Assembly: GCF_025628885.1 (NCBI RefSeq)
Contig: NZ_JAOTIF010000039.1
Span: 1-36,460 of the forward strand
Source: Paraflavisolibacter caeni
GTDB lineage: Bacteria; Bacteroidota; Bacteroidia; Chitinophagales; Chitinophagaceae
Direction: 5' to 3'
Length of the DNA stretch: 36,460 nucleotides
Shown one piece after another: positions 140-35,557 of the stretch; the first letter of the stretch is position 1; every line of letters starts with the position of its first letter. The notes under the pieces were generated by a model. That model had not been told where the DNA came from. It did no database searches and was given only the letters and a program-made list of their open reading frames with translations. The position numbers and the translations under genes were made by a program.

Positions 140-204
140 GCAAAAAAAACATCAGAAATAGTCAATTTATCATTGATATGTGAAGTGTGATTGGATGAAA
201 TTTA
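140..204 (+). promoter_or_regulatory. Operator copy 1 and weak -7 box, first GH38-like gene
   Basis: This copy has GC at 140, an A-run, ACATCA at 149-154 and GTCAA at 161-165. These blocks have the same relative positions as in six other copies in the window. A weak -7-like box (GAAATTTA, 197-204) begins 49 bp after motif base 148. If the box is real, transcription would start near 210 and the GTG at 180 and ATG at 195 could not be used. The operator is better supported than the box. Confidence 0.5.
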
Positions 205-209
205 CAGCC

Positions 210-2969
210 ATGATGAAACTATTGTGCTGTCTAACCGTAAGTCTCTTTTGCATCAAATTCTTATCAGCCCAAAACTATGACCCGGCAAACACTTTGCCCG
301 GTAATGGGCCGCTGGCAACTGATGTATCGAATAAAAAAGGAGCGCCAACTAATTTGCAGCAGGTGGTAATTGTGTATAAAACCCATTTCGATATTGGGTA
401 TAGTGAAACCGTGCAACAGGTATTGCATGATTACCGCACTTCTATGGCCGACCTGGTGATTGATGCCATCGAAAAGAATAAAAATCAGCCTAAAGACAAA
501 CAATTTGTGTGGACTGTTTCCGGCTGGCCGATGAAACAGATATTATGGAATGGGCAGCCACCAGTGCGTAAAAAGAAAATCGAAGAAGCAATTACCAGTG
601 GTAATTTAAAAGTGCATGCATTTCCTTTCAGCATGCACGTTGAAACCTCCGATCCTGAAGATTTGGTAAGAGGGTTGAATATTTCCGCTACATTGGCCCG
701 TAAGTACCATCAGCCACTACCCATTAGCGCTAAAATGAGCGATGTGCCTGGGCAAAGCTGGATCATGCCAACCTTGTTGACTCACGCAGGTGTAAAGTTT
801 TATCATATGGGAGGCCCGGTGGTCAATAAGACCTTTGGATTGCCACCCTTTTTCTGGTGGGAAGGACCTGATGGTTCAAGGCTCTTAACCTTGTACAATA
901 ATGGATATGGCAGCAGTCCTTTGCCACCGGCTAACTGGCCTTTCAAGACCTGGGTATATATAAGTATGACGGGAGATAACCAGGGCCCGCCCTCTCCCGG
1001 AACAGTGGCAAAAGATATCGCCTTTTACCAGGAAAGGGGCATAAAGGCAACCGTAGGTTCTCTTGATGATTTCGCTAACCTGGTGCAAAAAGAAGATCTA
1101 AGCCATTTACCCGTTGTGCGCAGCGATATCGGCGATCCCTGGATACATGGTGCAATGTCTATGCCTGAGGCCAGCAAGCTTGCTCAGAATATTCGGCCTG
1201 CCATTGGTGGCATGGAGGCGCTCAATACGCTGGAAAAGCTATGGGGGATCTATCGTCCCGATATGACAGAAACAATAGCCAGTGCCCACGAAAATAGTTT
1301 GTTGTACAGTGAGCATACCTGGGGTTTGGCTAACCAGCACTATGTAAAGTTGCCTTATGGAAATGACTGGACCACCCGTTGGAAAAAAGGCTTGCCTCCA
1401 CAATACCAACTCCTCGAATCATCATGGAAAGACCATGCTGCCTATATCGACAACGCAGCTCGCCTGGTGACAAACCCATATAAGGATGCAGTAGCTGCAT
1501 TAGCCGACAATGTAAAAGCAGACGGTAAACATATTATCGTTTACAATCCATTGCCATGGTCCCGGAGCGGGGAAATTCAGTTCGATACCCGCCTCATTTT
1601 CGGAAATGATTTTGTTTCATTACAATCGGTTGATGGAGGGGAGCCCGTTGCTGTATCGCATGAATATGATGCGATTGAAGATAGCCAGCCTTTCAGCCGC
1701 TTTTACGTAAGTGATATTCCGGCCATGGGCTATCGGACTTTTGTTGCCTCGAAAACACCTGCTAAAGCACCGGCATTTTCCTTTAGTAAAGAACAGGGAA
1801 TCATAGAAAGCCCCTTCTTTAAGGCCCAATTGGATCCGCAAAAAGGAAGAATCGTCAGCTTAATTGATAAAAGAAGTGGCAGGGAACTGGTGGATGCAAA
1901 TGCGCCGCAGGGATTTGGCCAGTATTTTTATGAGCGCTTTAGCTATGCGCAGTTGGACAATTGGTTGACTCGCTCATTGTATCCTCAATACAAGGCGCAT
2001 AAGTTCGCTTTTGTAGCCTACGATATGCCAAAGGAAGAATCCTACCAATCCTTCCTGCCTCAGGATATGGAATTAAATATTGTACAATCTGCAATTGATA
2101 TTAAGGCAATATTGACAGGAAACTTAAAAACAGGTAATGAATCGCAACAGGTAAGTATGTCGCTTACCTTAAGTGGATTTGAACCCATTGCAGATGTAGA
2201 GCTCAGTTGGCAAAAGCAGCCCGACTCTTGGCCCGAAGCTGGTTGGATGTGTTTGCCATTTAAAGTAAGCAATCCATCCTTTCAATTGGGTAGGTTAGGA
2301 GCCAATGCCGATCCTGCAAAAGACATGAATGTGACCAATGCCAATCATAAATTGTGGTGGGTCAATACAGGTGCTGCTGTATATGATAGTACCACAGGTG
2401 CAGGCGTGGCAATTTGTTCGCCTGATGCGCCTCTGCTAAGTATCGGCGAACCTGGCGAATACCAGTTTGACAGTACGTTTACCAGCCGCAAGCCATATTT
2501 TTATCTGAATCTATACAACAATCACTGGCGCACCAATTTCCCTGCCTGGATAGGCCATGGACAAAGAATGAATGCAAAAGTCCGCTTATGGAGTTTCAAT
2601 AAGTTTAATGCTGAATCTGGCCTGTATACGCCTGCCATGGAAACCAGGGTGCCATTGATGGCGGCAGCTTCAAAACTAACTAAGGGACAATTGTCCCCTA
2701 CAAAATCTGGTATCAGCTTATCTCGGAAAGGTGTTGCCGTAACTGCATTTGGAGCCAACCCGGATGGCCGGGGAACGATATTGAGACTATGGGAACAGGC
2801 TGGAGTTTCCGGGAAATTGACCGTGTCACTCCCCGCTGAAGCTCCCTTCACATTTGCCCAGCCGGTAAATTTAAGAGGCGAAAAGCAGGGGCAAAAAATA
2901 CCAGTAATAAAAGGAAAGTTTTCTGTCGATGTACCAGCATATACGCCAGTTAGTTTAATTCTTGAATGA
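210..2969 (+). CDS. Secreted GH38-like (DUF5054-type) glycoside hydrolase
   Basis: Likely a secreted or periplasmic hydrolase of the DUF5054 group, whose N-terminal domain resembles GH38 alpha-mannosidases. A hydrophobic signal peptide ends in FLSAQ. A THFDIGY segment near the N-terminus has the His-x-Asp arrangement of the GH38 zinc site. SDVPGQSW about 120 residues later sits where GH38 enzymes have their nucleophile Asp, and SEHTWG may supply a further metal His. The C-terminal half is beta-rich. Starts at GTG 180 and ATG 195 are open in frame; ATG 210 (or 213) is preferred because it begins the signal peptide directly and fits the operator spacing. About 919 residues, similar to its paralogue at 32673-35402. 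It is a single-gene unit with its own operator and terminator. Family confidence is good; linkage and substrate cannot be read from the sequence. Confidence 0.85.
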   Translation: MMKLLCCLTVSLFCIKFLSAQNYDPANTLPGNGPLATDVSNKKGAPTNLQQVVIVYKTHFDIGYSETVQQVLHDYRTSMADLVIDAIEKNKNQPKDKQFVWTVSGWPMKQILWNGQPPVRKKKIEEAITSGNLKVHAFPFSMHVETSDPEDLVRGLNISATLARKYHQPLPISAKMSDVPGQSWIMPTLLTHAGVKFYHMGGPVVNKTFGLPPFFWWEGPDGSRLLTLYNNGYGSSPLPPANWPFKTWVYISMTGDNQGPPSPGTVAKDIAFYQERGIKATVGSLDDFANLVQKEDLSHLPVVRSDIGDPWIHGAMSMPEASKLAQNIRPAIGGMEALNTLEKLWGIYRPDMTETIASAHENSLLYSEHTWGLANQHYVKLPYGNDWTTRWKKGLPPQYQLLESSWKDHAAYIDNAARLVTNPYKDAVAALADNVKADGKHIIVYNPLPWSRSGEIQFDTRLIFGNDFVSLQSVDGGEPVAVSHEYDAIEDSQPFSRFYVSDIPAMGYRTFVASKTPAKAPAFSFSKEQGIIESPFFKAQLDPQKGRIVSLIDKRSGRELVDANAPQGFGQYFYERFSYAQLDNWLTRSLYPQYKAHKFAFVAYDMPKEESYQSFLPQDMELNIVQSAIDIKAILTGNLKTGNESQQVSMSLTLSGFEPIADVELSWQKQPDSWPEAGWMCLPFKVSNPSFQLGRLGANADPAKDMNVTNANHKLWWVNTGAAVYDSTTGAGVAICSPDAPLLSIGEPGEYQFDSTFTSRKPYFYLNLYNNHWRTNFPAWIGHGQRMNAKVRLWSFNKFNAESGLYTPAMETRVPLMAAASKLTKGQLSPTKSGISLSRKGVAVTAFGANPDGRGTILRLWEQAGVSGKLTVSLPAEAPFTFAQPVNLRGEKQGQKIPVIKGKFSVDVPAYTPVSLILE

Positions 2970-3042
2970 TTTGTTAACAACGGATTGGCAATTTCCATCC
3001 GTTAAAAAGTTTCTCATGTTAGATTATAGTTGATTAAGATCC

Positions 3043-3072
3043 GTAGGGGCTTTCTAGCCCCTACTTGTTTTT
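3043..3072 (+). terminator. Intrinsic terminator, dispersed GTAGGGGC family
   Basis: Perfect 8-bp stem (GTAGGGGC / GCCCCTAC) with loop TTTCTA, followed by TTGTTTTT. It lies 73 bp after the GH38-like stop codon. Near-identical hairpins occur at 13213, 14977 and 26321. The copy at 26321 also shares the upstream TTGATTAA context, so these are copies of one sequence rather than chance terminators. A weaker hairpin without a T-tail (arms around AACGGAT / ATCCGTT, 2979-3003) lies between the stop codon and this site. Confidence 0.8.
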
Positions 3073-3154
3073 ACTCCTAAAAGTAGTTTAACACAATTAG
3101 AGTTTCAGTAAGTTAAAATTAAAAACTACTTTCACGCAGCTTTGCTTGCCGACT

Positions 3155-3742
3155 ATGAAGACTGAGTTCTATGATGAAATAAAATTGCTTCACCTTTTGA
3201 AAGCTGGAGATACTGATGCTTACCTTCAATTATATAATAAGTATCATTCGGCTCTGTATGCGTATATCCTTCGTTTTATTAAAATTCCTGAACTTGCCGA
3301 AGATGTGCTACAGGAGGTCTTCCTTAAAATATGGGAAATTCGTGAGCGGATTAACCCTGATCTATCATTTCAGGCTTATTTATACCGGATAAGTAGAAAT
3401 AGTGTATTTAAGTTGGTAAAAAAGATTGCGGCCGATGAGGAGTTACGCAACCAGGTAGCCTACCATATCAGTGAAACAATTGAGGATGCTGATCTTAATT
3501 TACAATGGCAGCGCTATCATGAAATTTTACAAGCTGCTATTCATCAATTACCACCACAAAGACAAAAGATTTTTAAACTCTGTCGCCAGGAAGGCAAGAA
3601 ATATGAGGAAGTGGCAGCTGAACTGAATATATCACGCAATACTGTAAAGGAACATATGGTGCTTGCTGTAAAATTTCTTAAAGATTATGTTTCCAGGCAT
3701 GCTGATATTCAATTAATTATAGCATTATTTTTTCTTAAGTAA
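3155..3742 (+). CDS. ECF RNA polymerase sigma factor (FecI-like)
   Basis: Sigma-70 family extracytoplasmic-function sigma factor of about 195 residues. Region 2 is clear (YNKYHSALYAYILRF, then ELAEDVLQEVFLKIWE), and region 4 carries the helix-turn-helix (LPPQRQKIFKLCRQEG, then YEEVAAELNISRNTVKEHM). A TTG at 3146 would add three residues; ATG 3155 is preferred. The FecR-like anti-sigma gene follows after 182 bp, and a SusC with an STN signalling domain follows that. This is the classical order for trans-envelope induction: substrate loading of SusC is sensed by FecR, which frees the sigma factor. Its likely target is the SusC/SusD operon just downstream, which is inferred from neighbourhood. 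A TACTTTCA sequence at 3127-3134 could be its -7 box. Confidence 0.93.
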   Translation: MKTEFYDEIKLLHLLKAGDTDAYLQLYNKYHSALYAYILRFIKIPELAEDVLQEVFLKIWEIRERINPDLSFQAYLYRISRNSVFKLVKKIAADEELRNQVAYHISETIEDADLNLQWQRYHEILQAAIHQLPPQRQKIFKLCRQEGKKYEEVAAELNISRNTVKEHMVLAVKFLKDYVSRHADIQLIIALFFLK

Positions 3743-3762
3743 TTCAGCAACCTACCATTGAT

Positions 3763-3823
3763 GCTACCTCCCACTAGCCTGTTGTATTGAAGCTACATCC
3801 CACTATCCTGTTGTTGTATTCAA
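3763..3823. repeat. Imperfect ~30-bp direct repeat between sigma and fecR genes
   Basis: Two adjacent imperfect copies: GCTACCTCCCACTAGCCTG followed by TTGTATTGAA (3763-3791), then GCTACATCCCACTATCCTG followed by TTGTTGTATTCAAA (3792-3823). The copies differ at a few positions and by a 3-bp TTG insertion. They lie just after the sigma gene. The rest of the gap holds an A-rich block and CCACCCTT/GGGTAATATATA, which probably belongs to the fecR leader. No gene is visible in the gap. Confidence 0.6.
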
Positions 3824-3924
3824 AGCGAATTTCTTAAAAAAGAAAAAAAAGTTTCCTCCTGAACCACCCTTTCTTTTGTTTTTAGGGTAATATATATAAG
3901 GGTTCCGAAAATGACAATGATTAT

Positions 3925-5121: not shown

Positions 5122-5186
5122 ACAGACTGACTAATGTCGTTCCTGGAAGACAATGCCAGGGTATAAAATAAGTGGTTGACCTTAAT

Positions 5187-5217
5187 AAAAAACCGGAAGT
5201 GGTTCCAGCACTCCCGG
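5187..5217 (-). terminator. Minus-strand terminator-like hairpin between fecR and susC
   Basis: Read on the minus strand, CCGGGAGTG pairs with CACTTCCGG across a 7-nt loop, giving nine pairs with one G-U, and is followed by six T. On the plus strand the same bases have an A-C mismatch and no T-tail, so the signal is oriented against the surrounding genes. It could stop antisense transcripts entering fecR, or be a structured element in the susC leader. The 170-bp gap otherwise shows no gene. Confidence 0.45.
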
Positions 5218-14182: not shown

Positions 14183-14801
14183 ATGCACCCCATTTTTGAT
14201 AATGTAGTTAAGTATGCACATGCTAAAGGATTAAAAATCGGGTGATGGCTTTTATATACCAGGCAGTTTAAAGGATATTACGTCACAGGTACAAAAAACA
14301 GAAACAACAAATAGCGTAGCCGTTTCAATTGATCTAAACGCTGCCATGAAAGGCTACACAGTTTATGTGCTAACCCAGCATTACTACAATTACTGGAGTA
14401 ACCACAGTCCCCAGGCTGTAGCCAACCTTACCAATATTTTAAAAACATATGCTGACATACCCTTCGATGGCGTAGGTCTTGATGAGTACGCCAATTTGCC
14501 TATTATCCCTGCGTGGGAATTAAAAAATGGCGATGTTTTCAGGGAACGGTCCTATTCACTGGCCATGGATTCTGTTTTTAAAGCCAATACAGGCCTGGCA
14601 GCTATAAAAATTGATGCGAAAAACAATATTGAAAAGCTGGCTGCCACTGGGTTTTCATCATTGCAAAAAAACAGTAAAACCATTTTTGCTCTGGATAAAC
14701 CTGCAGATGTTTTCATAGAAGTGAAAAACAAAAAAATTTATATAACAATAGCTGGCAATGAAAATGAAACACGAATCATCACCAACGAAATTTTAAATTG
14801 A
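14183..14801 (+). pseudogene. Decayed secreted TIM-barrel hydrolase remnant
   Basis: Remnant of a larger enzyme. Frame 1 starts at ATG 14183 (MHPIFDNVVKYAHAKGLKIG) and hits TGA at 14243. The reading continues in another frame (GDGFYIPGSLKDITSQVQKT) into the open stretch 14346-14801. The pieces resemble the strand-helix-strand pattern of a TIM barrel (KYAHAKGLKIG; then ADIPFDGVGLDEYANLP with possible catalytic acids). No signal peptide and only about 200 residues remain, so large deletions are likely besides the frameshift. The 151-residue open part could still be read from ATG 14346, but as an incomplete domain. Exact family not recognised. Confidence 0.6.
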
Positions 14802-14856: not shown

Positions 14857-14922
14857 GCAAAAATAACATCTATAATAGTCAAAATAATATTAGTTAGGCG
14901 GCGTCTTCACTTGTACCTTTCG
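14857..14922 (+). promoter_or_regulatory. Operator copy 2 and -7 box with no gene downstream
   Basis: GCAAAAAT, then AACATCT (14865-14871), then GTCAA (14878-14882) and AATA. A good -7 box (TACCTTTC, 14914-14921) begins 49 bp after motif base 14865. Unlike the copies before enzyme genes, the next feature in the direction of transcription is the terminator at 14977, about 50 bp beyond the expected start site. The site therefore drives either a short RNA of about 75-80 nt or nothing useful after loss of a gene. Confidence 0.6.
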
Positions 14923-14976: not shown

Positions 14977-15006
14977 GTGGGGGCTTTCTAGCCCCTACTT
15001 GTTTTT
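14977..15006 (+). terminator. Intrinsic terminator, dispersed family, overlapping MFS 3' end
   Basis: Stem GTGGGGGC / GCCCCTAC (one G-U pair in plus-strand RNA), loop TTTCTA, tail TTGTTTTT. It would end transcription from the orphan promoter at 14857 or from the decayed hydrolase. The minus-strand MFS reading frame runs into this hairpin and takes its TAG stop from it (14988-14990). Confidence 0.7.
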
Positions 15007-16138
15007 AGCGAGGATACGATCATAATACCAATTCCTGCAGCAATAAGAAGCAAGAAGGAAATTCTAAAATTAGTGGCTTGTGAAATAAATCCTATTAATG
15101 GCGGTCCTGTTAAAAAACCAAGATAGCCAATAGTAGAAACTGAAGTAATAGCAGGGCCCGTACTTAAAGTAGAGGTTTTAGGCACCGTACTAAAAACCAG
15201 GGGCATTATACAAGAAACACCGGCACCTATTAAAAAAAGCCCAAGGCAGCAGTGGTAATATTCGGGAATAAAATTGCTAGTCCCACACCGGTCAAGACCA
15301 TTGTTCCACTTAATTGTAATATCCTTTTCACGCCCCAGTTATTCACTGCCCAATCACCTGCGAAACGTCCCACAGTCATTGCACAGAGATAGCATATGTA
15401 TCCAAGAGTTGTAAATCCTTTAGAGGTATTCACCTGTTTTTCGAAATAAATACTGCCCCATTCACCTATTGTTCCTTCGCAAACCATACTGCAGAAAGCA
15501 ATAATGGCCAGTTTTATGAGAGGTTTATCTGGAAGAATGAAAGCAGTGTTTCTTTGGTGTGGGTGGTTGTCATTTTGCAAAACATATCGAGATATGATAG
15601 TAATAATGATAAAGGTAATTATACCAATTATTAAAAAATGAGTGGTTACAGATACATCTCCCGAAATTATTAATGAAGCAATTGCGGCTCCGGCAAACCC
15701 TGCTACGCTCCATACGCCATGAAAAGAAGTCATGATTGATTTATCAAATAAACCCTGTACACCAACTGCCTGTATATTTACAGATATATTAAATAAATTA
15801 CGGAAAGAACCAAAGAAGAAAAGAATAATCCCCAACTCCCATACTTTAGTTGCCAAACCAAGCAAACCTAAAAGTAAAGAATATAACAAAGAGCCTATGA
15901 GCATTATATTCTTACTATTGTAAATATTTAGTAAGTAGCCGGCTACCGGCATCGTTAGCATTAAACCCAATGGCAACAATACAAGTAAACTGCCCAACTC
16001 TGCATCATTTAGTTGAAACTTTTTCTGTAAGTCCGGAATACGGGATGCCCATGTAGAAAAAGTAAATCCAGAAAGAAAAAAGAAAATGCTTACTGCTATT
16101 CGTGCATTTTTTTTATGTGTAAATTGTTCATTCGTCAT
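14988..16138 (-). pseudogene. YbjJ-like MFS transporter, frameshifted
   Basis: Inner-membrane major facilitator protein resembling the E. coli YbjJ group (SGFTFSTWASRIPDLQKKF, then LNDAELGSLLVLLPLGLML), with the usual hydrophobic helices. The first frame runs from the start to TAA just after ALGFF near 15230. The rest of the protein (LIGAGVSC, then IMPLVFSTVPKTSTLSTGPA and the last helices to SSLKTSRG) continues in another frame. The break falls in a run of seven T on the coding strand; one more T would restore a protein of about 383 residues, normal for the family. ATG 16138 is preferred, because the upstream ATG at 16153 lies inside the adjacent transposon remnant. The cause may be real inactivation, slippage or a sequencing error. 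Substrate unknown. Confidence 0.8.
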
Positions 16139-26178: not shown

Positions 26179-26244
26179 GTAAAAATATCATCAGTAGTAG
26201 TCAAAATAGTGGTAGTAGAATGAGTATAAAATGGTCAACTTTAT
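26179..26244 (+). promoter_or_regulatory. Operator copy 3 and weak -7 box with no gene downstream
   Basis: GTAAAAAT, ATCATCA (26187-26193), then GTCAAAATAG from 26200, all in the register of the other copies. A weaker -7-like box (AACTTTAT, 26237-26244) begins 50 bp after motif base 26187. The next feature is the terminator at 26321; between them the longest frame from an ATG is about seven codons. Like copy 2, it would give a short RNA of roughly 100 nt or is left over from a deleted gene. Confidence 0.55.
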
Positions 26245-26320: not shown

Positions 26321-26349
26321 GTAGGGGCTTTCTAGCCCCTACTCGTTTT
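26321..26349 (+). terminator. Intrinsic terminator, dispersed GTAGGGGC family
   Basis: Hairpin identical to the one at 3043 (GTAGGGGC, loop TTTCTA, GCCCCTAC), tail TCGTTTTA. The 35-40 bp before it also resemble those before the 3043 copy (TCTCATGT...TTGATTAA), so both derive from the same 3' untranslated region. No gene ends nearby; the last one upstream stops at 25582. Confidence 0.75.
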
Positions 26350-26460: not shown

Positions 26461-26526
26461 GCAAATAAAACATCAACATTGGTCAAATTAGAAAAGGTCT
26501 GAACAAAAACTCTCTTGTACTTTTAG
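26461..26526 (+). promoter_or_regulatory. Operator copy 4 and -7 box, GH31 gene
   Basis: GCAAATAA, AACATCA (26469-26475), GTCAAA from 26482, and a -7 box TACTTTTA starting at 26518, 49 bp after motif base 26469. The GH31 start codon is at 26547, giving a leader of about 15 nt. This copy is only 112 bp after the terminator of the previous, gene-less unit. Confidence 0.6.
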
Positions 26527-26546: not shown

Positions 26547-28856
26547 ATGATAAAGAATCCCCATGGTAAGTTGTCCCTGCTGTCCTTTCTTTTACTGTTG
26601 ATAACCCATGTGGGGCTTTGCCAGAACTTTACCAAAACCAATACAGGTATTAAAACGAGCGTGGATGGTTTAACAGTTGAAGTGCAGTTTTTCAATTCCC
26701 GGATTGTCCGGGTAATCAAAGCACCCGAAGGTACTTCCTTTAATAAGCAAAGTCTTTCGGTCATTAAAACGCCAGCCGCCACTCCTTTGCAAATTCAGCA
26801 GCAGGGAAATGCCGTTCTGCTGAAGAGTGAAGCCCTGCAAGTAGCACTTGATCTGCAGACAGGTAAAGTTGCTTTCAGTAACCTCAATGGCGGTCTGCTC
26901 TTTACTGAAAAAGATTATGGCTCACAGTTCACTGCCATTAAAGATGTCAACAAGAATACCTACAGTGTTCGCCAGGCCTTCCGGTTGGACAAAGACGAGG
27001 TTATCTATGGGCTTGGTCAACAGCAAAACGGTAAAATGAACCAGCGCGGCCAAAAGGTGTTCCTGCGCCAGGATAACACGAAGGTTTGCATTCCCTTCTT
27101 TCAATCAGTAAAAGGATATGGCGTGTTTTGGGATAACTATGCACCTACCACCTTTTTAGATAATCCCCATGAAACTTCTTTTGATTCGGAAGTAGGGGAT
27201 GGCTCCGACTATTATTTCCTGTATGGTGGCAGTGCTGATGGCGTGATTGCCCAAATGCGTGATTTAACAGGACAGGCACCCCTGATGCCACTCTGGGTGT
27301 ATGGCTTCAACCAATCCAGGGAGCGCTATAGAACCCAATACGAGCTTTTGAATGTGGTAAAGAAATACCGAAGCCTGAAAGTACCCCTGGATGGCATCAT
27401 CCAGGACTGGCAGTATTGGGGTAAAGACAGCAACTGGAATGCTATGAGTTTTGAACCCTCAACTTATCCCCGTCCAAAAGAACTGATCGATAGTGTGCAC
27501 CAACTGAATGCTCATATCTTTTTTGTGGCATGGCCGGGCTTTGGTCCCAATACCCCTCAGTATAAAGAACTGAAGGAAAAAAAGATGCTGCTCAATTTTG
27601 AAACCTATCCTCCCAGGTTCATGTCCACGCCTTATGATGTTTACAACCCTATGGCTCGCGATATCTATTGGCGTTACTTGGACAAAGGCGTGTTCTCCTT
27701 AAATTCCGATGCATGGTGGTTGGATTCATCTGAGCCAGATCATTCAAACCTGAAAGAAAGCGACTTTGACCTGCCTACTTACCTCGGCACTTTTCGCAGT
27801 GTGCGCAATGCTTTCCCTTTGCAACATGTAGGTGGCGTATACGATCATCAGCGGCAGTCAACTTCTGATAAAAGGGTAATGATCCTTACCCGCTCAGCCT
27901 TTGCCGGCCAGCAGCGCTATGGTGCCAACACCTGGAGTGGTGATGTGCATTCCAACTGGGAGACACTTCGCAAACAGGTACCTGCAGGTTTGAACTTTTC
28001 TTTGTGCGGTATTCCCTATTGGAACACTGATATTGGGGGCTTCATTGGAGAAGGTTTTCCGAAAGGAGCAAAGAATCCTGAATTCCAGGAACTCTATACC
28101 CGCTGGATGCAGTTTGCAACTTTTACCCCCATGATGCGTTCCCATGGAACAAGCATTCCCAGGGAAATCTACCAATTTGGTAATCGTGGTGAATGGCCAT
28201 TTGATGTTCAGGAGAAATTCATCAATTTACGCTACCAGCTTTTACCCTATTTATACGCTACTGCATGGGATGTAACCAGTCATTCCGGTTCTATCATCCG
28301 TGCTTTGTATATGGATTTTGTAAATGACAAGAAGGTGTATGATATCGATAATGAGTACCTGTTTGGAAAGTCATTTTTAGTATCCCCTGTAACGGATAAA
28401 GGGACCACTACCCAATCTGTTTACCTGCCTGCCGGTGCTGTATGGTACGACTTCTGGACTGGCGAACGTACTGACGGCGGCAAAGCTGTGGATAAAGCAA
28501 CACCAATCGACATCATTCCCTTATACGTGAAAGGCGGTTCTATTGTGCCCTGGGGGCCAAAGGTTCAGTATGCGGAAGAAAAGAAGTGGAATAACCTGGA
28601 GTTGCGCATTTATCCTGGTGCTGATGCTGCATTCACTTTGTATGAGGATGAAAACAATAACTACAATTACGAGCAAGGCAAATACGCTGAAATTACTTTT
28701 AACTGGAATGATCAGGCTCGTACATTAACCATCAAAGATCGTAAGGGCAGTTTTCCTGGCATGCTCAGTACAAGAAAATTCAATATAGTATTGGTGAACA
28801 ATCAAAATTCAAAAACAATAACCTACAAAGGCAAAGAGGTTACAGCCAAATTCTAA
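26547..28856 (+). CDS. GH31 alpha-glycosidase (xylosidase/glucosidase group)
   Basis: Secreted or periplasmic retaining alpha-glycosidase of CAZy GH31, 769 residues. Signal peptide (LLLLITHVGLCQ), N-terminal beta-sandwich (to about 230), and a TIM barrel with DGIIQDWQYWG. The nucleophile motif WWLDSSEPD contains Asp393, the acid/base motif WSGDVHSNW contains Asp466, and CGIPYWNTDIGGFIGEG follows. C-terminal beta-sandwich domains include YLPAGAVWYDFWTGERTDGG and YVKGGSIVPWGP. GH31 includes alpha-glucosidases, alpha-xylosidases, alpha-galactosidases and others; the DSSEPD version fits the xylosidase/glucosidase side but does not settle the activity. It is its own unit with the shared operator upstream; no clear terminator follows. 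Confidence 0.93.
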   Translation: MIKNPHGKLSLLSFLLLLITHVGLCQNFTKTNTGIKTSVDGLTVEVQFFNSRIVRVIKAPEGTSFNKQSLSVIKTPAATPLQIQQQGNAVLLKSEALQVALDLQTGKVAFSNLNGGLLFTEKDYGSQFTAIKDVNKNTYSVRQAFRLDKDEVIYGLGQQQNGKMNQRGQKVFLRQDNTKVCIPFFQSVKGYGVFWDNYAPTTFLDNPHETSFDSEVGDGSDYYFLYGGSADGVIAQMRDLTGQAPLMPLWVYGFNQSRERYRTQYELLNVVKKYRSLKVPLDGIIQDWQYWGKDSNWNAMSFEPSTYPRPKELIDSVHQLNAHIFFVAWPGFGPNTPQYKELKEKKMLLNFETYPPRFMSTPYDVYNPMARDIYWRYLDKGVFSLNSDAWWLDSSEPDHSNLKESDFDLPTYLGTFRSVRNAFPLQHVGGVYDHQRQSTSDKRVMILTRSAFAGQQRYGANTWSGDVHSNWETLRKQVPAGLNFSLCGIPYWNTDIGGFIGEGFPKGAKNPEFQELYTRWMQFATFTPMMRSHGTSIPREIYQFGNRGEWPFDVQEKFINLRYQLLPYLYATAWDVTSHSGSIIRALYMDFVNDKKVYDIDNEYLFGKSFLVSPVTDKGTTTQSVYLPAGAVWYDFWTGERTDGGKAVDKATPIDIIPLYVKGGSIVPWGPKVQYAEEKKWNNLELRIYPGADAAFTLYEDENNNYNYEQGKYAEITFNWNDQARTLTIKDRKGSFPGMLSTRKFNIVLVNNQNSKTITYKGKEVTAKF

Positions 28857-29018: not shown

Positions 29019-29851
29019 ATGTTTCAACTAAAAATGACAAGAATAAAAAAAGCAGGTCTCATTGGTTTTTGCTTTTTACTAACCAGTATTTCTGCTTCAG
29101 CACAAAATAAAATTGATTTTTCACCCCTGAACGACCTGGTGAAAAGACAAATACCATCCTTATAAGGAAGGGTAATTTTTAAGCCTATAGAAAAACAAAA
29201 TGGACAGGATGTATTCGAATTGGCTACAACAAAAGATAAATTGACAATCTCCGCGTCTTCCGTGCCATCTGCCGGGCAGGGGATCAATTGGTACCTGAAA
29301 TATTATTGCCACCAAATGATGGCGCTTCAAAGTTCTAACCTCAAACCAATCAGGTCGCTGCCTCAGGTAAATGCACCGGAACGCCATGTAAGCCAGGCAG
29401 AATACCGTTATGCATTTAATTATTGCACCTTCAATTACTCGATGAGCTTCTGGAGATGGAAGGAGTGGGAGACTGCATTAGACTGGATGGCATTGAATGG
29501 GGTCACTACCTCACTGGCGATGGTTGGCATGGAACAGGTTTGGTACAATACATTGCAGCGTTTGGAATGTACACAAAAAGAAATTGACGATTTTATTCCC
29601 GGTCCTTCTTATACAGCCTGGTGGCTGATGGGTAATTGTCCACACTTTATTATGACCGCTGGAAAAAATACATAGATCATAAACAAGCTGAATTAGAGGG
29701 CAATTCAGAAGGTGCAAAAGCTATAGATTTTTATGCTATGGAAAAAGACTGGGCAAACAAGACCGGTGAGAAGTATGAGGAAAAAACAATTAAAGACTAT
29801 GTTGGGCTTGCAAATGCTGTATATAAAAAAGCTATTTCTTTAACAGACTAA
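29019..29851 (+). pseudogene. GH89 alpha-N-acetylglucosaminidase pseudogene
   Basis: Remnant of a NAGLU-type enzyme (GH89, normally about 700-750 residues). A signal peptide (CFLLTSISASAQNK) and 48 codons lead to an in-frame TAA at 29163. The same frame resumes with the N-terminal domain and the family hallmark AFNYCTFNYSMSFWRWKEWE followed by DWMALNGVTTSLAMVGMEQVW. After GPSYTAWWLMGN (about 29635) the similarity ends abruptly. In a different frame the sequence jumps to the C-terminal helix region (YYDRWKKYIDHKQAELEG to the end at 29851). About 1.3 kb encoding most of the catalytic domain is missing. The enzyme cannot work; it shows that the ancestral locus dealt with alpha-linked GlcNAc. Confidence 0.88.
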
Positions 29852-29934: not shown

Positions 29935-29999
29935 GCAAAAATAGCATCAACTCCGGTCAATTTTGATGTTGTCTTAAGGGCGTCCTTCCCATATTTTAG
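29935..29999 (+). promoter_or_regulatory. Operator copy 5 and -7 box, unclassified TIM-barrel-like gene
   Basis: TGCAAAAAT, AGCATCA (29943-29949), GTCAA at 29956-29960, and -7 box TATTTTAG at 29992-29999, 49 bp after motif base 29943. The start codon at 30015 follows within about ten bases of the expected start of transcription, so the leader is very short. Confidence 0.6.
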
Positions 30000-30014: not shown

Positions 30015-32507
30015 ATGATAAAGAAAATATATGGCAGAATGGCGTTGCCATTCTGCCTGTTTGTTTTTGGAGCAATGGTGCAGGATGCAGATGCCCAGGT
30101 GCAGTTGAAAACAAAGCAATGGGGCATGCAACTCGATGCTTCTGGTAAACTGGCCAGTATGAAAAGCTTAAAACTGCAGAAAGAATTTCTGGTCGCAGAA
30201 AAGGCAACTGCATTATTGAGTATTAAAAAGAATGGACAGTTGCTGGCGCCCCAGCGTTGTGTATGGAATGCGAAAACTTCGGAAATCCAGTTGTCTTATC
30301 CGCAGGTAGGAGAGGAAGCTACGATCAAAGTAAAGCAGAATGATCAATACATCACTTTTGAATTGATGAAACTGACCCATGCAGACCAGGTTGATTGGGT
30401 GCAATGGGGCCCATTCCCTACCAATATCGCTGATACGGTTGGCGAAGTAGTAGGCGTGGTGCGTAATGCCAATTTTGCCATTGGCATCCAGGCGCTGAAT
30501 GTGAAAACCCTGGGCGGCAGTCCTGAGGTGGAAAGCGATATCCAACCATCTTATGATGTGTTTACGAATGGAAACACAGTGGATATAAACAAAGATGACC
30601 TGAACAAGCAATTGTTCCGGGGCGATGTGGCCAAAATAATGCCTTATGGCAGCCTCTTACAGGCATATACCCGCAATCGTAATAAAGACCGTATAATTGA
30701 TAACTGGAGCCATCCCCGCTACCTGGCACCTGCGTTTCCCCAGGACGGAGGAGTGATCGGCAGTAAGCTGGCCATGTTTGGTGTGGCTACTTCCGGGGTA
30801 TTATCCACCATTTCTACTATTGAGCAAAAAGAGAACCTGCCGCATCCCATGTTGGATGGCGTATGGGCCAAAGAAGCCCGTCATGCATCCGAATCATACC
30901 TGATCATGGATTTCGGAGAAAGTAACTTACAGGAAGCACTTGACCTGACACGCCAGGCCGGGCTTCGTTACCTCTACCATGGTGGCCCGTTTGATACCTG
31001 GGGGCATTTTAAGTTGAATAGCAAGGAGTTTCCAAACAACTGGGCCAGTTTAAAAGACTGCGTGGATAAAGCCAAAGCTCAGAATATGCGCCTGGGTCTC
31101 CACACGCTTTCCAACTTTATTACAACCAACGATCCTTATGTAACCCCTGTGCCCGATGCCCGCCTGGCAAAAGTGGGATATTCCCAATTAGTCAATAACA
31201 TTGGCGTAGATACAAAAGAGATCGAGATCAAAGAACCTGGATTTTTCAACCAGTATCAAAATAATACACTCAAAGCAGTCGTAGTTGGAAATGAGATCAT
31301 TCGTTATAGCAAGGTTTCAGACGTTGCACCCTGGAAACTATTAGATTGTCAAAGAGGTGCCTTTAATACAAAAGCAACATCTCACAATGCCAACGACAGC
31401 ATCGGCAAACTGATGGATCATGGTTATAAGGTCTTCCTGGGTAACTATGAACTGGACCAGGAAATGGCTAAAACGATCGCTCGTTTGTTTAACGAAACCG
31501 GCTTGATGCAAATTTCTTTCGATGGACTCGAAGGCTGCTGGAGTGAGGGTATGGGCGATTATGGCAAACAATTATTTACCAAAACCTGGTTCGATAACCT
31601 CAAGCCTGAATTGAAAGGCAAAGTGATCAACGATGCCAGCAATCCTGGACACTTCTTTTGGCACATCTACACCCGTATGAATTGGGGCGAGCCCTGGTAT
31701 GCTAGTTTCCGTGAAAGCCAGTTGCAGTTGCGCTTGAAAAACCAGCATTTTTATCGTCGCAACCTGATGCCTTCCATGTTGGGATGGTTTAGCCTGAAAG
31801 CCGAAACTACGCTGGAAGATATTGAATGGATGCTGGCAAGAGGTGCTGGTTTTGATGCAGGCTTTGGATTGTCTACCAGTATCGAAACACTAAAGAAACA
31901 TGGTCGTAAAGATGAGATCCTGGCCACGATCAAACTGTGGGAAAAAGCAAGACAAGCTAATTTGTTTACTGCTGCTCAAAAACAACGCATGCAGGATACT
32001 AAAAATGAATTCCACCTGCAAACCACTGCTGATGGCGCTTATCAGTTAGTACCGGTATATAATACCTTCCTGGTGCACGAGCAAAAGATAAAACAGCCCG
32101 GTGAACCTGTATTCTCAACTTTCCAGTTCAATAATCCTGCGGCTGCACAGCCAATGGCTTTTATCATGACAATGGCGCCCAAAAAAGATAGCGACCCGGA
32201 TGTGTCTTTCGATAATCCTTCTATAGCTATCAACCAGCAGGATGCATTGGTGTTACCTGTTAGTTTGAAGCGCAACCAGTTTTTGTATTGTGATGGTAAG
32301 ACCGTAAAACTGTACAACAAGCAATGGCAACTGTTGCAAACAATAACATTAAGCAAACCCTTGCCACAGTTTGCAAACGGCAACAACGACATCATTTTCG
32401 ATGGGAAATACTCCGGTGAAAATGGCGCAGATATAAAAATTGAATTACGTGCCAAAGGAACGCCCGAACTGTTGCAAACTTCAAGCGGCAAACTGGCTTT
32501 TAATTAA
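30015..32507 (+). CDS. Unclassified secreted TIM-barrel-like glycosidase candidate
   Basis: I do not recognise a named family. 830 residues with a signal peptide (FCLFVFGAMVQDADAQ). Residues about 25-280 are beta-rich (substrate-binding sandwich-like). About 290-650 look like a TIM barrel: SYLIMDFGESNLQEALDLTR, GLRYLYHGGPFDTWGHF, KAQNMRLGLHTLSNFITTND, LMQISFDGLEGCWSEGMGDY, NPGHFFWHIYTRMNWGEPWY. Asp503 (in SFDG) and Glu in NWGEPW are candidate catalytic acids by position at predicted strand ends. The C-terminus is beta-rich again. The layout resembles retaining alpha-glycosidases of the GH36/GH101-like architecture, but this is inference. It has its own operator and terminator and lies among other alpha-glycosidases. 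Confidence 0.75.
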   Translation: MIKKIYGRMALPFCLFVFGAMVQDADAQVQLKTKQWGMQLDASGKLASMKSLKLQKEFLVAEKATALLSIKKNGQLLAPQRCVWNAKTSEIQLSYPQVGEEATIKVKQNDQYITFELMKLTHADQVDWVQWGPFPTNIADTVGEVVGVVRNANFAIGIQALNVKTLGGSPEVESDIQPSYDVFTNGNTVDINKDDLNKQLFRGDVAKIMPYGSLLQAYTRNRNKDRIIDNWSHPRYLAPAFPQDGGVIGSKLAMFGVATSGVLSTISTIEQKENLPHPMLDGVWAKEARHASESYLIMDFGESNLQEALDLTRQAGLRYLYHGGPFDTWGHFKLNSKEFPNNWASLKDCVDKAKAQNMRLGLHTLSNFITTNDPYVTPVPDARLAKVGYSQLVNNIGVDTKEIEIKEPGFFNQYQNNTLKAVVVGNEIIRYSKVSDVAPWKLLDCQRGAFNTKATSHNANDSIGKLMDHGYKVFLGNYELDQEMAKTIARLFNETGLMQISFDGLEGCWSEGMGDYGKQLFTKTWFDNLKPELKGKVINDASNPGHFFWHIYTRMNWGEPWYASFRESQLQLRLKNQHFYRRNLMPSMLGWFSLKAETTLEDIEWMLARGAGFDAGFGLSTSIETLKKHGRKDEILATIKLWEKARQANLFTAAQKQRMQDTKNEFHLQTTADGAYQLVPVYNTFLVHEQKIKQPGEPVFSTFQFNNPAAAQPMAFIMTMAPKKDSDPDVSFDNPSIAINQQDALVLPVSLKRNQFLYCDGKTVKLYNKQWQLLQTITLSKPLPQFANGNNDIIFDGKYSGENGADIKIELRAKGTPELLQTSSGKLAFN

Positions 32508-32552
32508 GTGATGAAGTTCTCCATTTATAATGCAGGTTTATTGTTAATTTCT

Positions 32553-32584
32553 AAGGGGCTTTTCCAGGCTCCTTATTTCTTGAT
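32553..32584 (+). terminator. Intrinsic terminator, AAGGGGC family
   Basis: Seven-pair stem AAGGGGC / GCTCCTT (one G-U pair), 8-nt loop TTTTCCAG, then ATTTCTTGATTT. It lies 45 bp after the stop codon and only 11 bp before the next operator copy, so one unit ends right where the next begins. The core GGGGCTTT resembles the GTAGGGGC terminators. Confidence 0.7.
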
Positions 32585-32594
32585 TTAATAAGAG

Positions 32595-32660
32595 GCTAAT
32601 ATGCCATCAGTATTGATCACAATAGCATCTGTTTGAAAACAATCATTCTTGTTACTTTAT
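32595..32660 (+). promoter_or_regulatory. Operator copy 6 and -7 box, second GH38-like gene
   Basis: GCTAATAT, GCCATCA (32603-32609), GATCA in place of GTCAA (from 32616), AATAGCATCTG, and -7 box TACTTTAT at 32653-32660, 50 bp after motif base 32603. The second CATC lies 21 bp after the first, as in copy 7, so the site reads as direct repeats two helical turns apart. ATG 32673 follows 12 bp after the box. Confidence 0.6.
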
Positions 32661-32672
32661 GTGCATACTCGT

Positions 32673-35402
32673 ATGAAAAAATTAAAATTGACATTTCTAT
32701 TGGCCTTCCCTGTTCTGTTACAAGCACAGATCAGTGCTGTTGATGCAGGGAAAGGTGCAGTAAATAATACTGTTACGGATATCGTGGTGGCCTTTAAAAT
32801 GCATGTTGATATAGGCTATACAGACTGGGCCGAGGCAGTGCTTCAGAAATACTCCGGCCCTATGCTGGATAAAACTCTAGCTTTTATTGACCAAACGGCT
32901 TCTCTGCCTAAGAATGAACAGTTTGTATGGACAATTCCTGCATGGCCTTTGCAATACATGCTTGATAATTGTTCTCCTCAAAATAAAGGGCGGCTGGAAA
33001 AAGCCATTAAAGAAAAACGGATCGTTCCTCATGCCTTGCCATTTACTTTGGAAACTGAGTCAAGCGACTTGGAAAATCTCACCCGTGGATTGTCGTTTGC
33101 AAATAATATCAACCGCCGCTATGGATTAAAACCTGCGCGTGATGCCAAGTTCACCGATGTGCCCGAGCATTCATGGGTCATCCCGACTTTATTAAAAAAC
33201 GCAGGTGTGGATATTTTACATATCGGTTGTAATCCCGGTTCAACTTCACCCGATGTGCCAACCTTGTTTTGGTGGCAGGGGCCTGATGGTTCAAAACTGC
33301 TCACCTTTTATTGGGCGCAGTATTATGGCTCCGGAATTTTACCGCCTAAAGACTGGCCCCACAAAACATGGCTGGCTATGATTCATACGCATGAAAACAC
33401 AGGAGCCCCCGATCCTAAAGAGGTAGCAGCCTTATTAAAAGAGGCAAAAGAGAAAATGCCCAATGCACGCATACACATCGGAAGGATTTCTGATTTTTAT
33501 GATTTGTTGATGAAGGAAAATCCAAAATTACCGGTCGTAAAAGGCGATATGCCGGATACTTGGATTCATGGCTTTATGTCTATGCCGGAGGAAGTGAAAA
33601 CAAACAAAGTTTTTCAACGTGAAACTTATGTGACCGAGCAGTTGAATACGCACATGAATTTATGGAAAGGCAAAGACGTTTCAATTGACAAATACGTGAA
33701 TAAGGCGACAGAAAATATGTTACTGTTTGATGAACATACTTTTGGCGGAGCTATTTCGCATGGGCATCAACTATTCTGGAAATATGGAGATGAATTTAAA
33801 ATTAACAGGGCCGCAGGCAATTATTATTTCCTGGAAAAATCATGGGAAGAAAAATCAGCCTACACAAAAGAAGCTGAGAAAACTATATGGCCATTAAAAC
33901 GGAACCTCCTTTTCGAGTTAGTGAAATCTGTGAAAGATAAAACATCGCATGTCACCGTTTACAATCCCCTGCCATGGGCAAGAAGTGGGCGTGTATCCCT
34001 GTTTCAAAGCTATTATGAAAATCCGTCACATCCTGTACCGCCCATTACAGCCCTGAAGGATATCGAAACAGGAAAGATCATCCCTGTCCATCAGGATCAT
34101 AACCTGCTTTCTTTTGATGCGATGGATGTTCCGGCAGGCGGATATAAAACTTTTGTGGTTTCCAATGATGATGGAGCTATTGCTTCATCGCTTTCCGCTA
34201 ACGAGCAGAACAATGTATTGGAGAATAAATATTTTAAATTGATCATCAATCCATCCACGGGAACATTGCAGTCAGTCTTTGACAAGCAAAACAATCGGGA
34301 ACTGGTGGATGCTAAGAGTAAATATTCTTTTGGTGAATATGTGTATGAACAACTGGGACAGGAACAAATAGAGGCATACAACAAAAACTATATAAAGCCG
34401 GGCAGTGAGGATTGGGCAGGCCAGGAGTTTATCAGGTTAAAGAGCCAGGTGCCTAACCAGCAACATATTAGATTCACCGGGAAATGCGATAAAATAGATT
34501 GGCTCAAAAATAAAAGCTTGGTACGCGCCACAGCAATGTGTCAGTTAAATGATAGCAGTGCGCAGCGTTACCTGGTGAGTTATACGCTTTACGAAAATCA
34601 ACCTTATATTGAAATTACAGTAGGACTGGACGGAAAGAAACCTGTACCCAATCCTGAAGCAGGCTGGGTGGCTTTCCCGTTTGCTTTAAACAAACCGGAA
34701 TACCGGCTGTTGCGCACAGGCGGTATTGTAGACCCGCAAAAAGATTTGGTGAACAAAACCAATCACGACTTTTATTTTCTCAACACAGCAATGGCAATGT
34801 ATGATAAGGCAGGTGGCATTGGATTGAACTGTCCACATACACCAGGCGTAAGTATTGACCAGCCGGGAATTGGGGTTTATTCCAAAACAAGAACACTTTC
34901 AACTGGCACTGTGTTTTCTAATTTGTATAACAATGCCTGGGGTACCAATTTTACAGAATGGGTGGAGGGATCGCACGCGGCTAAATTTTACATCTGGAGT
35001 TATAAAAATTATGATGCGGAGTCTACCTTCATTACCCCTGCGGAAGAAACACGTACACCTTTGAGCGCAGCGTTTTATGCACCGAATGGACTGGCGTTTT
35101 CATATAATTATGAAACCACCGGTGAGTTGCCTAATTCCCAAAGCGGACTTACACTGGATCGTAAGGGTATTATAGTTACTTCATTCAACAAACAAGGCAA
35201 TGAAGGGATGATTCGTTTTTGGGAAGAAGCAGGCCGTTCGGGGAAATGTACCGTAACACTCCCTGGAAATGCCTCATTCAAAAAAGCTTACCTCTGTAAT
35301 TTACGAGGTGAACAATTGGATGAAAACGGAATTACGATTTCCAATAATTCTTTTGCATTTGAAATTGGCGCTAACCAGCCACGGACATTTATCTTGAAAT
35401 AG
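32673..35402 (+). CDS. Secreted GH38-like (DUF5054-type) glycoside hydrolase, second copy
   Basis: Paralogue of the protein at 210-2969, about 909 residues from ATG 32673 (a TTG at 32649 is open but would lie upstream of the expected transcription start). Signal peptide TFLLAFPVLLQAQ. Shared landmarks: KMHVDIGYTDW (His-x-Asp), WTIPAWPLQYML, FTDVPEHSWVIPTLLKNAG with the presumed nucleophile Asp, PDTWIHGFMSMPEE, and LLFDEHTFGG. The beta-rich C-terminal half also aligns (VYNPLPWARSG, KYFKLIINPSTGTLQSVFDK). The two proteins are clearly diverged and probably cut different linkages or residues. GH38-like chemistry is inferred; the family is poorly characterised. It is a single-gene unit with operator and terminator. 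Confidence 0.85.
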   Translation: MKKLKLTFLLAFPVLLQAQISAVDAGKGAVNNTVTDIVVAFKMHVDIGYTDWAEAVLQKYSGPMLDKTLAFIDQTASLPKNEQFVWTIPAWPLQYMLDNCSPQNKGRLEKAIKEKRIVPHALPFTLETESSDLENLTRGLSFANNINRRYGLKPARDAKFTDVPEHSWVIPTLLKNAGVDILHIGCNPGSTSPDVPTLFWWQGPDGSKLLTFYWAQYYGSGILPPKDWPHKTWLAMIHTHENTGAPDPKEVAALLKEAKEKMPNARIHIGRISDFYDLLMKENPKLPVVKGDMPDTWIHGFMSMPEEVKTNKVFQRETYVTEQLNTHMNLWKGKDVSIDKYVNKATENMLLFDEHTFGGAISHGHQLFWKYGDEFKINRAAGNYYFLEKSWEEKSAYTKEAEKTIWPLKRNLLFELVKSVKDKTSHVTVYNPLPWARSGRVSLFQSYYENPSHPVPPITALKDIETGKIIPVHQDHNLLSFDAMDVPAGGYKTFVVSNDDGAIASSLSANEQNNVLENKYFKLIINPSTGTLQSVFDKQNNRELVDAKSKYSFGEYVYEQLGQEQIEAYNKNYIKPGSEDWAGQEFIRLKSQVPNQQHIRFTGKCDKIDWLKNKSLVRATAMCQLNDSSAQRYLVSYTLYENQPYIEITVGLDGKKPVPNPEAGWVAFPFALNKPEYRLLRTGGIVDPQKDLVNKTNHDFYFLNTAMAMYDKAGGIGLNCPHTPGVSIDQPGIGVYSKTRTLSTGTVFSNLYNNAWGTNFTEWVEGSHAAKFYIWSYKNYDAESTFITPAEETRTPLSAAFYAPNGLAFSYNYETTGELPNSQSGLTLDRKGIIVTSFNKQGNEGMIRFWEEAGRSGKCTVTLPGNASFKKAYLCNLRGEQLDENGITISNNSFAFEIGANQPRTFILK

Positions 35403-35446
35403 ATGATTGGGAAACTACATTGTTCTCTCATATAATTTAAACACAC

Positions 35447-35480
35447 AAGGGGCTTTTCTAAGCCCCTTATTTATTTTATT
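35447..35480 (+). terminator. Intrinsic terminator, AAGGGGC family
   Basis: Perfect 9-bp stem AAGGGGCTT / AAGCCCCTT with loop TTCT, followed by ATTTATTTTATT. It lies 45 bp after the GH38-like stop codon and 12 bp before the next operator copy, repeating the arrangement at 32553-32595. Confidence 0.8.
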
Positions 35481-35491
35481 TATAATGCAAT

Positions 35492-35557
35492 GCAAAAATA
35501 ACATCAGTAATTGTCAAAATAGCATCTGTTTTCCAGCGATCATGTCCGTTATTTCGT
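35492..35557 (+). promoter_or_regulatory. Operator copy 7 and -7 box, second ECF sigma gene
   Basis: GCAAAAAT, AACATCA (35500-35506), GTCAA at 35513-35517, AATAGCATCTG, and a weak -7 box TATTTCGT at 35550, 50 bp after motif base 35500. This is among the best copies of the motif: the two CATC blocks are exactly 21 bp apart. It precedes a sigma factor gene, so the regulator of this motif may control that sigma factor as well as the enzymes. Confidence 0.6.

Follow-up and report, generated by a model that had tools for sequence, protein, structure and literature searches.

The stretch of DNA analyzed here, a window of 36,460 nucleotides that makes up the entire contig NZ_JAOTIF010000039.1 (C33) of the Paraflavisolibacter caeni genome (G000; 7.01 Mb in 89 contigs), holds glycoside hydrolase (GH) genes, susCD pairs and genes for extracytoplasmic function (ECF) sigma factors, and is punctuated by copies of a conserved DNA element. 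This element recurs with a fixed promoter spacing, and on the sequence evidence set out below it is very probably the operator of a one-component AraC-family regulator, AraC-30. The seven copies that an earlier note on the window had reported are all present, starting exactly at positions 140, 14857, 26179, 26461, 29935, 32595 and 35492. In every one of them a CATC block lies at +10 and a GTCAA-like block at +21 (ATCAC in the site at 32595), which agrees with the reported distance of 11 bp between the two, though the variable bases separating CATCA from GTCAA number six rather than seven. The best ungapped copies in the window read GCAAAAATARCATCAGTAATTGTCAAAATAGCATCTGTTTG. The sites are as follows (E-values are from R1, a sequence-only model of 24 sites of this genome; bit scores are from a motif obtained de novo in other species; both are described below):

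140..181, + strand: operator site 1, upstream of a GH38-like gene (E = 8.7e-7; 32.9 bits)
14857..14900, + strand: operator site 2, an orphan without an open reading frame (ORF) of its own downstream (E = 5.8e-8; 32.4 bits)
26179..26217, + strand: operator site 3, an orphan followed by a terminator-like hairpin and then by site 4 (E = 9.8e-8; 34.0 bits)
26461..26502, + strand: operator site 4, upstream of GH31 (E = 4.8e-7; 27.9 bits)
29935..29978, + strand: operator site 5, upstream of the gene for an unclassified 830-aa protein (E = 4.6e-6; 33.4 bits)
32595..32638, + strand: operator site 6, of a subtype common to contig C24 and clustering with the C24 sites, upstream of a second GH38-like gene; a second CATC lies 21 bp after the first (E = 1.3e-7; no match above 6 bits with the motif from other species)
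35492..35535, + strand: operator site 7, upstream of an ECF sigma factor gene, with both 21-bp repeat units well kept and matching the search pattern (E = 8.3e-11; 29.1 bits)

Each element is followed by a TAnnTTTG-like box at a nearly invariant distance. Across the 26 sites that we recognize in this genome the match to this box peaks at +57 from the first base of the site (4.04 of 6 positions; mean over offsets 1.87, sd 0.52), and the same peak is seen in 40 sites from relatives (4.03 of 6; mean 1.79, sd 0.52); in four of the 26 the best box stands at +63 or +64. Within the window the distance from the first G to the start of the box is 57 bp in six sites and 58 bp in 32595, in line with the fixed spacing proposed earlier. 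The 5/6 boxes reported at 14914, 26518 and 29992 were recovered and the other four score 4/6, including the one of site 26179, which the earlier note had set at 26237 with 3/6 and which we place at 26236:

197..204, + strand: -7-like box of site 1, 4/6, offset +57
14914..14921, + strand: -7-like box of site 2, 5/6, offset +57
26236..26243, + strand: -7-like box of site 3, 4/6, offset +57
26518..26525, + strand: -7-like box of site 4, 5/6, offset +57
29992..29999, + strand: -7-like box of site 5, 5/6, offset +57
32653..32660, + strand: -7-like box of site 6, 4/6, offset +58
35549..35556, + strand: -7-like box of site 7, 4/6, offset +57

The housekeeping (sigma-ABfr) promoter of Bacteroidetes, as described in the cited part of its published account, has TAnnTTTG at -7 and TTTG near -33 (PMC7366714). 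The sites of P. caeni resemble it in carrying a TAnnTTTG-like box at a fixed distance, and they differ from it in that the window boxes match at only four or five of six positions and stand without a clear separate -33 element. The second half-site of the element ends in a GTTTG (site positions 37-41) that precedes the box by 16-17 bp. The earlier note had put the operator at about -57 to -29; judged by the box, our estimate is nearer to -70 to -30.

The five genes that had been taken to be controlled by the element (two GH38-like genes, GH31, an unclassified gene and an ECF sigma factor gene) are all found downstream of sites:

210..2969, + strand: GH38-like target (PF01074, E = 1.2e-10), with in-frame ATGs at 195, 210 and 213; translation probably begins at 210 or 213, and not at 180 or 195, because the -7-like box of site 1 overlaps ATG195
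26547..28856, + strand: GH31 target (PF01055, E = 4.3e-92)
30015..32507, + strand: unclassified target of 830 aa without a Pfam or NCBIfam match, 26% identical over 840 aa to L152:16678-19215 (E = 2.6e-78)
32673..35402, + strand: GH38-like target, start ATG at 32673 (PF07748, E = 2.5e-7; PF01074, E = 1.9e-6)
35585..36205, + strand: ECF sigma factor target (PF04542, PF08281; TIGR02985 at 121.1 bits, just below its cut-off of 126.4)

Examination of the internal organization of the element revealed that self-similarity within 25 sites of this genome peaks at an offset of 21 (0.495 identity; the mean for offsets 8-30 is 0.289). Moreover, the site C24:45386- (coordinates elsewhere in the genome are given as contig, position and strand), which lies in front of a gene with weak similarity to Melibiase, holds three tandem 21-bp units (C24:45320-45386, minus strand; L033:5320-5386). 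Because offset 21 scores best and this site has three tandem units, we take the element to be made up of tandem direct repeats of 21 bp, the arrangement that two AraC-type domains bound to the same side of the helix would be expected to read; the recurrence of CATC 21 bp later, which the earlier note had likened to direct repeats, is likewise borne out by the self-similarity. In Pedobacter sp. V48 the sites L246:6163-6208 and 16084-16129 both contain ATATTGATCAATAT, a perfect palindrome inside a direct-repeat operator.

We searched the entire genome with a pattern of the motif; at up to three mismatches it had 42 matches, the reversed pattern had 10, and the good matches were concentrated on a few contigs. 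Twenty-five of the 42 were read out, leaving aside 17 with two to three mismatches off the clusters, and two of these (C10:115345- and C1:18480-) were dropped as lying inside ORFs. The position weight matrix (PWM) of the remaining 23 sites yielded 27 matches of at least 29 bits in the window and 14 of 15 extracted stretches, with the next at 18 bits. R1 recovered 35 genome matches at E<=1, of which 25 are strong (E<1e-5); among the ten weaker ones C24:45386, the third repeat of the site at 45365, and C30:17354 were accepted by their position, and the other eight are not claimed. The set of 26 sites used throughout consists of the 25 strong matches and C30:17354. A degenerate site of 17.6 bits, C31:4492- (L239:4404-4492), is a possible 27th that we do not count; it lies 88 bp upstream of an apparent operon of P. 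caeni coding for an aldo/keto reductase (AKR), an MR-type dehydratase, an SSS symporter and a mutarotase, about where relatives have the site of their AKR operon.

A PWM built from 18 sites outside the window ranks the seven window sites first (27.4-52.3 bits; next match 11.1 bits; maximum of 20 dinucleotide shuffles 9.4 bits), so that they are not attributable to chance; the search that gave these 18 sites used either a pattern based on the window motif or the 23-site PWM. The same circularity applies more widely: the first genome pattern was drawn from window sites, and the pattern with both repeat units, the 23-site PWM and R1 all include them, so that only the de novo motif and the model R2 presented below are independent of this genome. 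The placement of the sites is non-random. The earlier note had named a random scatter of the motif in coding regions as the outcome that would speak against it; none of the 26 sites overlaps by 10 bases an ORF of at least 150 aa, though such ORFs take up 88% of the 257,602 bases examined, and for 22 of the 26 an ORF read in the same direction begins 40-318 bp downstream. The four without such an ORF are 14857, 26179, C30:18112-, which by our visual reading precedes a decayed reading frame, and C52:6965+, which is near a contig end. A search of the window against Rfam returned no match at gathering scores.

To identify the protein that might recognize the element we turned to the two AraC-family genes near the sites of this genome, AraC-30 (C30:18289-19173) and AraC-24 (C24:66697-67569). 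The earlier note had pointed to regulators encoded just outside the window; with the window being a whole contig, these two candidates lie on the other contigs C30 and C24. AraC-30 is a protein of 294 aa in which Pfam detects solely the C-terminal AraC double helix-turn-helix (HTH_18, E = 1.7e-19), and the best-scoring site of the genome, C30:18112-, lies in its divergent upstream region. Scanning named genomes with an AraC-30 alignment we recovered 79 loci, 58 of which encode close relatives (at least 57% identity) from Chitinophaga, Pedobacter, Niabella, Sphingobacterium, Pinibacter and others, with at least seven genomes having two copies, and 21 encode distant AraC proteins (24-38% identity). 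At E<=1, R1 places a divergent site no more than 600 bp upstream of araC in 39 of the 58 close relatives, and in 18 of the 42 loci with an AKR gene it has a second one 0-700 bp before that gene; 12 of its 71 matches in these 58 loci lie elsewhere, and it has no match in the loci of the 21 distant proteins.

The upstream 350 bp of 56 non-redundant relatives, without any data from P. caeni, were given to an expectation-maximization motif finder (60 starts, best kept), which returned a motif that reads GCAAAAAAAGCATCAATAATGGTCAAATTAAGGGTGGT, i.e. the window motif. This de novo motif scores at least 14.8 bits in 47 of the 58 upstream regions of relatives (for the relatives themselves these are training scores), exceeds 15 bits in 20 of the 26 sites of P. 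caeni and gives 27.9-34.0 bits for six of the seven window sites, where 100 shuffles of the window peak at 11.6 bits. Likewise, R2, built from 37 sites of relatives, finds 18 sites at E<=0.01 in P. caeni, and six of the 18 are window sites. The element is thus conserved beside AraC-30 relatives across genera. Of the two kinds of regulator that the earlier note had entertained, an AraC-type protein or a hybrid two-component regulator, the former is upheld by the way in which the motif tracks AraC-30, and the latter finds no counterpart in a 294-aa protein with only an AraC helix-turn-helix. An AlphaFold model of the Chitinophaga pinensis relative of AraC-30 (mean pLDDT 78) matches full-length ToxT and Rns in Foldseek searches, and its N-terminal part matches L-arabinose-bound AraC and RhaR; with modest confidence, the predicted fold is consistent with a beta-rich ligand-binding domain.

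Several observations weigh against AraC-30 being the reader of the element. The second half-site is poorly kept in the 37 sites of relatives, where offsets 22 and 21 come out on top at just 0.386 and 0.359, and the full-length structural matches have TM-scores of only 0.39-0.44 with root-mean-square deviations of 8.5-12.5. Eleven of the 58 relatives are without the motif in the 350 bp upstream (negative scores), although 56 of the 58 formed the training set; among the eleven are six second copies from Chitinophaga genomes (L204, L206-L208, L210 and L212; 57-65% identity). In a strict search of 244 genomes of the family with R1 (E<=0.002), four of seven carriers of a close relative had a match (G000, G025, G069 and G218; not G024, G094 and G104), that in G025 and G218 being different from the one beside AraC-30, while five of the 237 other genomes had one match each; only P. 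caeni had more than one. With R1 at E<=0.01, nine of 58 genomes searched had a match; the weak matches in G024 and G025 adjoin AraC-30 relatives, and weak matches also occur in genomes without a known close relative (G008, G021, G039, G043, G053 and G054, not all of which were searched for AraC-30; in the search of 244 genomes, G061, G114, G131, G155 and G237). No site occurs in the 20 kb around a paralogue of AraC-30 on contig C78 that is 76% identical to it. Five sites (on C10, C19 twice, C34 and C51) head genes of outer-membrane protein (OMP) or thioredoxin type with no evident link to glycans, as judged from three genes tested and two read by translation. Finally, six of the 26 sites, including 32595, score below 10 bits with the motif of the relatives. 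As a separate observation, the C78 paralogue (L144:9729-10622) lies just downstream of an apparent ECF-FecR-SusC-SusD operon.

The low-scoring sites bring up the alternative that survives best. A second AraC protein may read them, and we regard it as possible, if tentative, that two paralogous proteins divide the sites between them, with AraC-30 reading the main subtype and AraC-24 a C24-like subtype that includes 32595. The sites C24:67784, 66472, 70962, 40074, 31600 and 45365 together with the window site 32595 form a cluster apart, in a clustering of 26 short sequences with an arbitrary cut, and all seven except 45365 score below 10 bits or are missed with the motif of AraC-30 relatives. 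AraC-24 has a site upstream of itself (C24:67784-), its first helix-turn-helix appears by eye similar to that of AraC-30 in an alignment whereas the second is divergent, and in G218 a site of 27.8 bits lies about 6 kb from an AraC-24 relative (in this genome relatives of AraC-30 and AraC-24 are about 27 kb apart on one contig). Against such a division stand two AraC-24 relatives of 69-70% identity (in G025 and G218) that lack a site directly upstream, and two CATCAATATTGATCAATAT-type sites of Pedobacter sp. V48 that lie about 23-34 kb from an AraC-30 relative in a genome where no search for an AraC-24 relative was made. AraC-24 as the sole regulator was rejected, since its two close relatives are without the motif directly upstream, where AraC-30 relatives have it.

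That a hybrid two-component system (HTCS), in which a sensor kinase is combined with an AraC domain, reads the motif is improbable. The published Bacteroides HTCS operators do share the architecture, with direct repeats averaging 21 bp in the part of the account cited (PMC3878776), and the best PDB sequence match of the AraC-30 profile is itself an HTCS protein (12aw); but the motif tracks the gene of a 294-aa one-component AraC protein, at 39 (R1) or 47 (de novo motif) of 58 loci, in which Pfam detects neither a kinase nor a receiver domain, no search for an HTCS near other sites having been made. It is still less likely that the sites are promoter elements of an ECF sigma factor, as the two ECF sigma genes in the window might suggest, rather than activator operators, given that the conserved part spans about 40 bp with a 21-bp periodicity, stops 16-17 bp short of a housekeeping-type -7 box and tracks an AraC gene. 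Equally remote is the view that the copies are by-products of duplicated DNA or of a mobile repeat without common regulation: judged by eye, the likeness of the sites on C10, C19 and C51 extends far past the motif, and the genes that follow the sites on C10, C19 (4180-) and C51 are related, but the flanks of the window sites are otherwise visually unlike, their -7 boxes stand at a fixed spacing, and other genera keep the motif beside the regulator.

With AraC-30 as the preferred reader, we infer how binding, effector, activation and a sigma cascade might fit together. Two AraC-30 monomers would bind the tandem 21-bp half-sites, the first GYMAAAATARCATCAGTATT-like and the second GTCAAAATAGCATCTGTTTG-like, from the same side of the helix, so that the dimer would sit about 70 to 30 bp upstream of the start of transcription, adjoining a weak housekeeping promoter whose sole clear element is the TAnnTTTG-like -7 box at its fixed spacing. 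Each monomer combines a probably beta-rich N-terminal domain with a C-terminal AraC double helix-turn-helix; the former is predicted to bind a sugar, probably a monosaccharide released from a glycan, and the sugar-bound dimer would recruit sigma-ABfr RNA polymerase. The ECF sigma factor under operator control could in turn indirectly switch on promoters that have no operator.

To better understand what such a regulator might control we examined the gene contexts of its sites. In stretches of up to 6 kb on each side of AraC-30, the 58 loci hold genes for a RhaM-type mutarotase (44), an MR-type dehydratase (43), an SSS symporter (43), an AKR (42), SusC (31), SusD (28) and the unclassified family typified by the window gene at 30015 (27-30). 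In P. caeni, sites precede GH38-like genes at 140, 32595, C24:70962- and C30:24684-, as well as GH31, GH3 and GH95 genes, an SDR gene, two Sugar_tr transporter genes, AraC-24, genes of the 30015 family and one ECF gene. The SDR gene heads a run of genes for a galactonate-type dehydratase, an SMP-30 lactonase, an Aldedh protein and an FAA hydrolase, a composition which suggests that a sugar such as L-fucose is oxidized without being phosphorylated. The earlier note had found neither susCD pair nor GH92 to carry the element; this holds in the window but not beyond it, for two susC-like genes of P. caeni, C30:17354- (Pfam Plug) and C30:9383- (by translation), and both susC-like and GH92-like genes of Chitinophaga polysaccharea have a site. 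The sites on C19 and C34 precede OMP_b-brl_3 and AhpC-TSA genes, and the genes on C10 and C51 resemble those on C19 by eye. On L038, L039 and L041 (C19, C10 and C51) the operators stand in long, near-identical surroundings before apparent copies of OMP_b-brl_3, with AhpC-TSA and Porph_ging-type proteins encoded nearby on C19, which has the look of a duplicated gene set outside any polysaccharide utilization locus (PUL) under the same operator.

In other species, one site of Pedobacter sp. V48 heads an ECF sigma operon (with FecR, SusC and SusD by translation) and another heads a 30015-family gene with a GH38-like gene two genes on, whereas five of the 11 sites of C. polysaccharea that were examined stand before a susC-like gene (by translation), a GH92-like gene, a gene for an 886-aa protein and two lipoprotein-like genes. 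The GH92-like protein is 24.7% identical to that of the window (E = 2e-54), and the ECF proteins of V48 and the window are not close (20.5% identity, E = 0.045). As the sites of these two species precede like families, it would seem to be gene families, rather than single orthologues, that recur under the operator. The predicted regulon thus spans import across the outer membrane (some susC genes), sugar transporters, enzymes that are GH38-like, of GH31, GH3 and GH95 or unclassified, an operon for sugar acids and a gene for an ECF sigma factor. That the operator spread in P. caeni from a local PUL switch to a super-regulon of 26 sites, tying several PULs, sugar-acid catabolism and outer-membrane/thioredoxin-like genes together in two tiers, with AraC acting on an ECF sigma factor and the latter on susCD promoters without an operator, we would place somewhat short of probable. 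Beside this stand the 18 sites that R2 finds here and the 1-11 that it finds in each of 17 genomes hand-picked among the carriers, counts that include its own training sites.

The two orphan sites, 14857 and 26179, have boxes of 5/6 and 4/6 and no ORF of their own; the short stretch after each ends in a terminator-like GGGGCTTTCTAGCCCC:

14980..14995, + strand: terminator-like hairpin after orphan site 2
26324..26339, + strand: terminator-like hairpin after orphan site 3

The same GGGGCTTTCTAGCCCC is also found at 3046, after the first GH38-like gene, with a variant at 35449 after the second, and a similar palindrome lies upstream of the AraC paralogue on C78. Both stretches are more stably folded than their shuffled versions (z = -5.3 and -2.6), mostly through the hairpin, and in 18 relatives the first has one 22-base match, the second none, and neither a full match. 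Because the stretches are not conserved and remnants of genes lie nearby, the orphan sites are likelier to be promoters left after gene loss than genes for small RNAs; the latter reading is disfavored, though short RNAs are possible. Window positions 29220-29675 hold a truncated NAGLU (GH89) fragment of 151 aa, by eye with an in-frame stop before it and an apparent frame change after it, i.e. a decayed gene, and the ORF at 14346-14801, without a Pfam or NCBIfam match, looks with its preceding bases like the C-terminal remnant of a longer gene.

The proposed mechanism is of a known kind, since 21-bp direct repeats have been published for both the predicted HTCS operators of Bacteroides (PMC3878776) and the RhaR operators (PMC3870299), as far as the cited parts of these and the further sources below go. 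RhaR, an AraC-type regulator responding to L-rhamnose in Bacteroides, Bacillales and Enterococcus, has direct-repeat operators with 21-bp periodicity, each RhaR group having a motif of its own (PMC3870299). The system described here is like it in the AraC family, in the 21-bp direct repeats and in the RhaM-type mutarotase and sugar transporter that neighbor AraC-30, and unlike it in that these neighbors are an AKR, an MR-type dehydratase and an SSS symporter, a comparison made by description rather than by the letters of the motifs; AraC-30 also falls far below the NCBIfam cut-offs for RhaS (47.1 bits versus 288) and RhaR (22.1 bits versus 363 and 525). In Bacteroides thetaiotaomicron the HTCS operators are direct repeats averaging 21 bp, that of HTCS_Man consisting of two 16-bp sites with a 5-bp spacer (PMC3878776). 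Such regulons likewise combine direct-repeat operators before glycan-utilization genes with an AraC-type DNA-binding domain, but to them belong a periplasmic sensor, a histidine kinase and a receiver, none of which Pfam finds in AraC-30. CgrA of the Zobellia galactanivorans carrageenan regulon, whose positive effect was established by deletion (PMC5698469), is, likened by description, also a PUL-linked AraC-family protein of Bacteroidetes with a regulon that takes in distant genes and a susCD pair.

Predicted operators of glycan regulators are on record for gut Bacteroides (PMC3878776). For Chitinophaga or Pedobacter the literature searched, which included few subscription papers and no supplements, holds no earlier account of such a regulon, and an earlier description is possible; as far as that literature goes, the regulator family, its operator and the size of the regulon in P. 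caeni are new. A regulator, its operator and a list of targets are here proposed jointly for Chitinophagaceae and Sphingobacteriaceae, which makes the prediction directly testable. The proposed shared control groups unclassified enzyme families, namely the 30015 family and the GH38-like proteins, and it predicts that an AraC protein would control an ECF sigma gene, a gene type found under the operator in Pedobacter sp. V48 as well.

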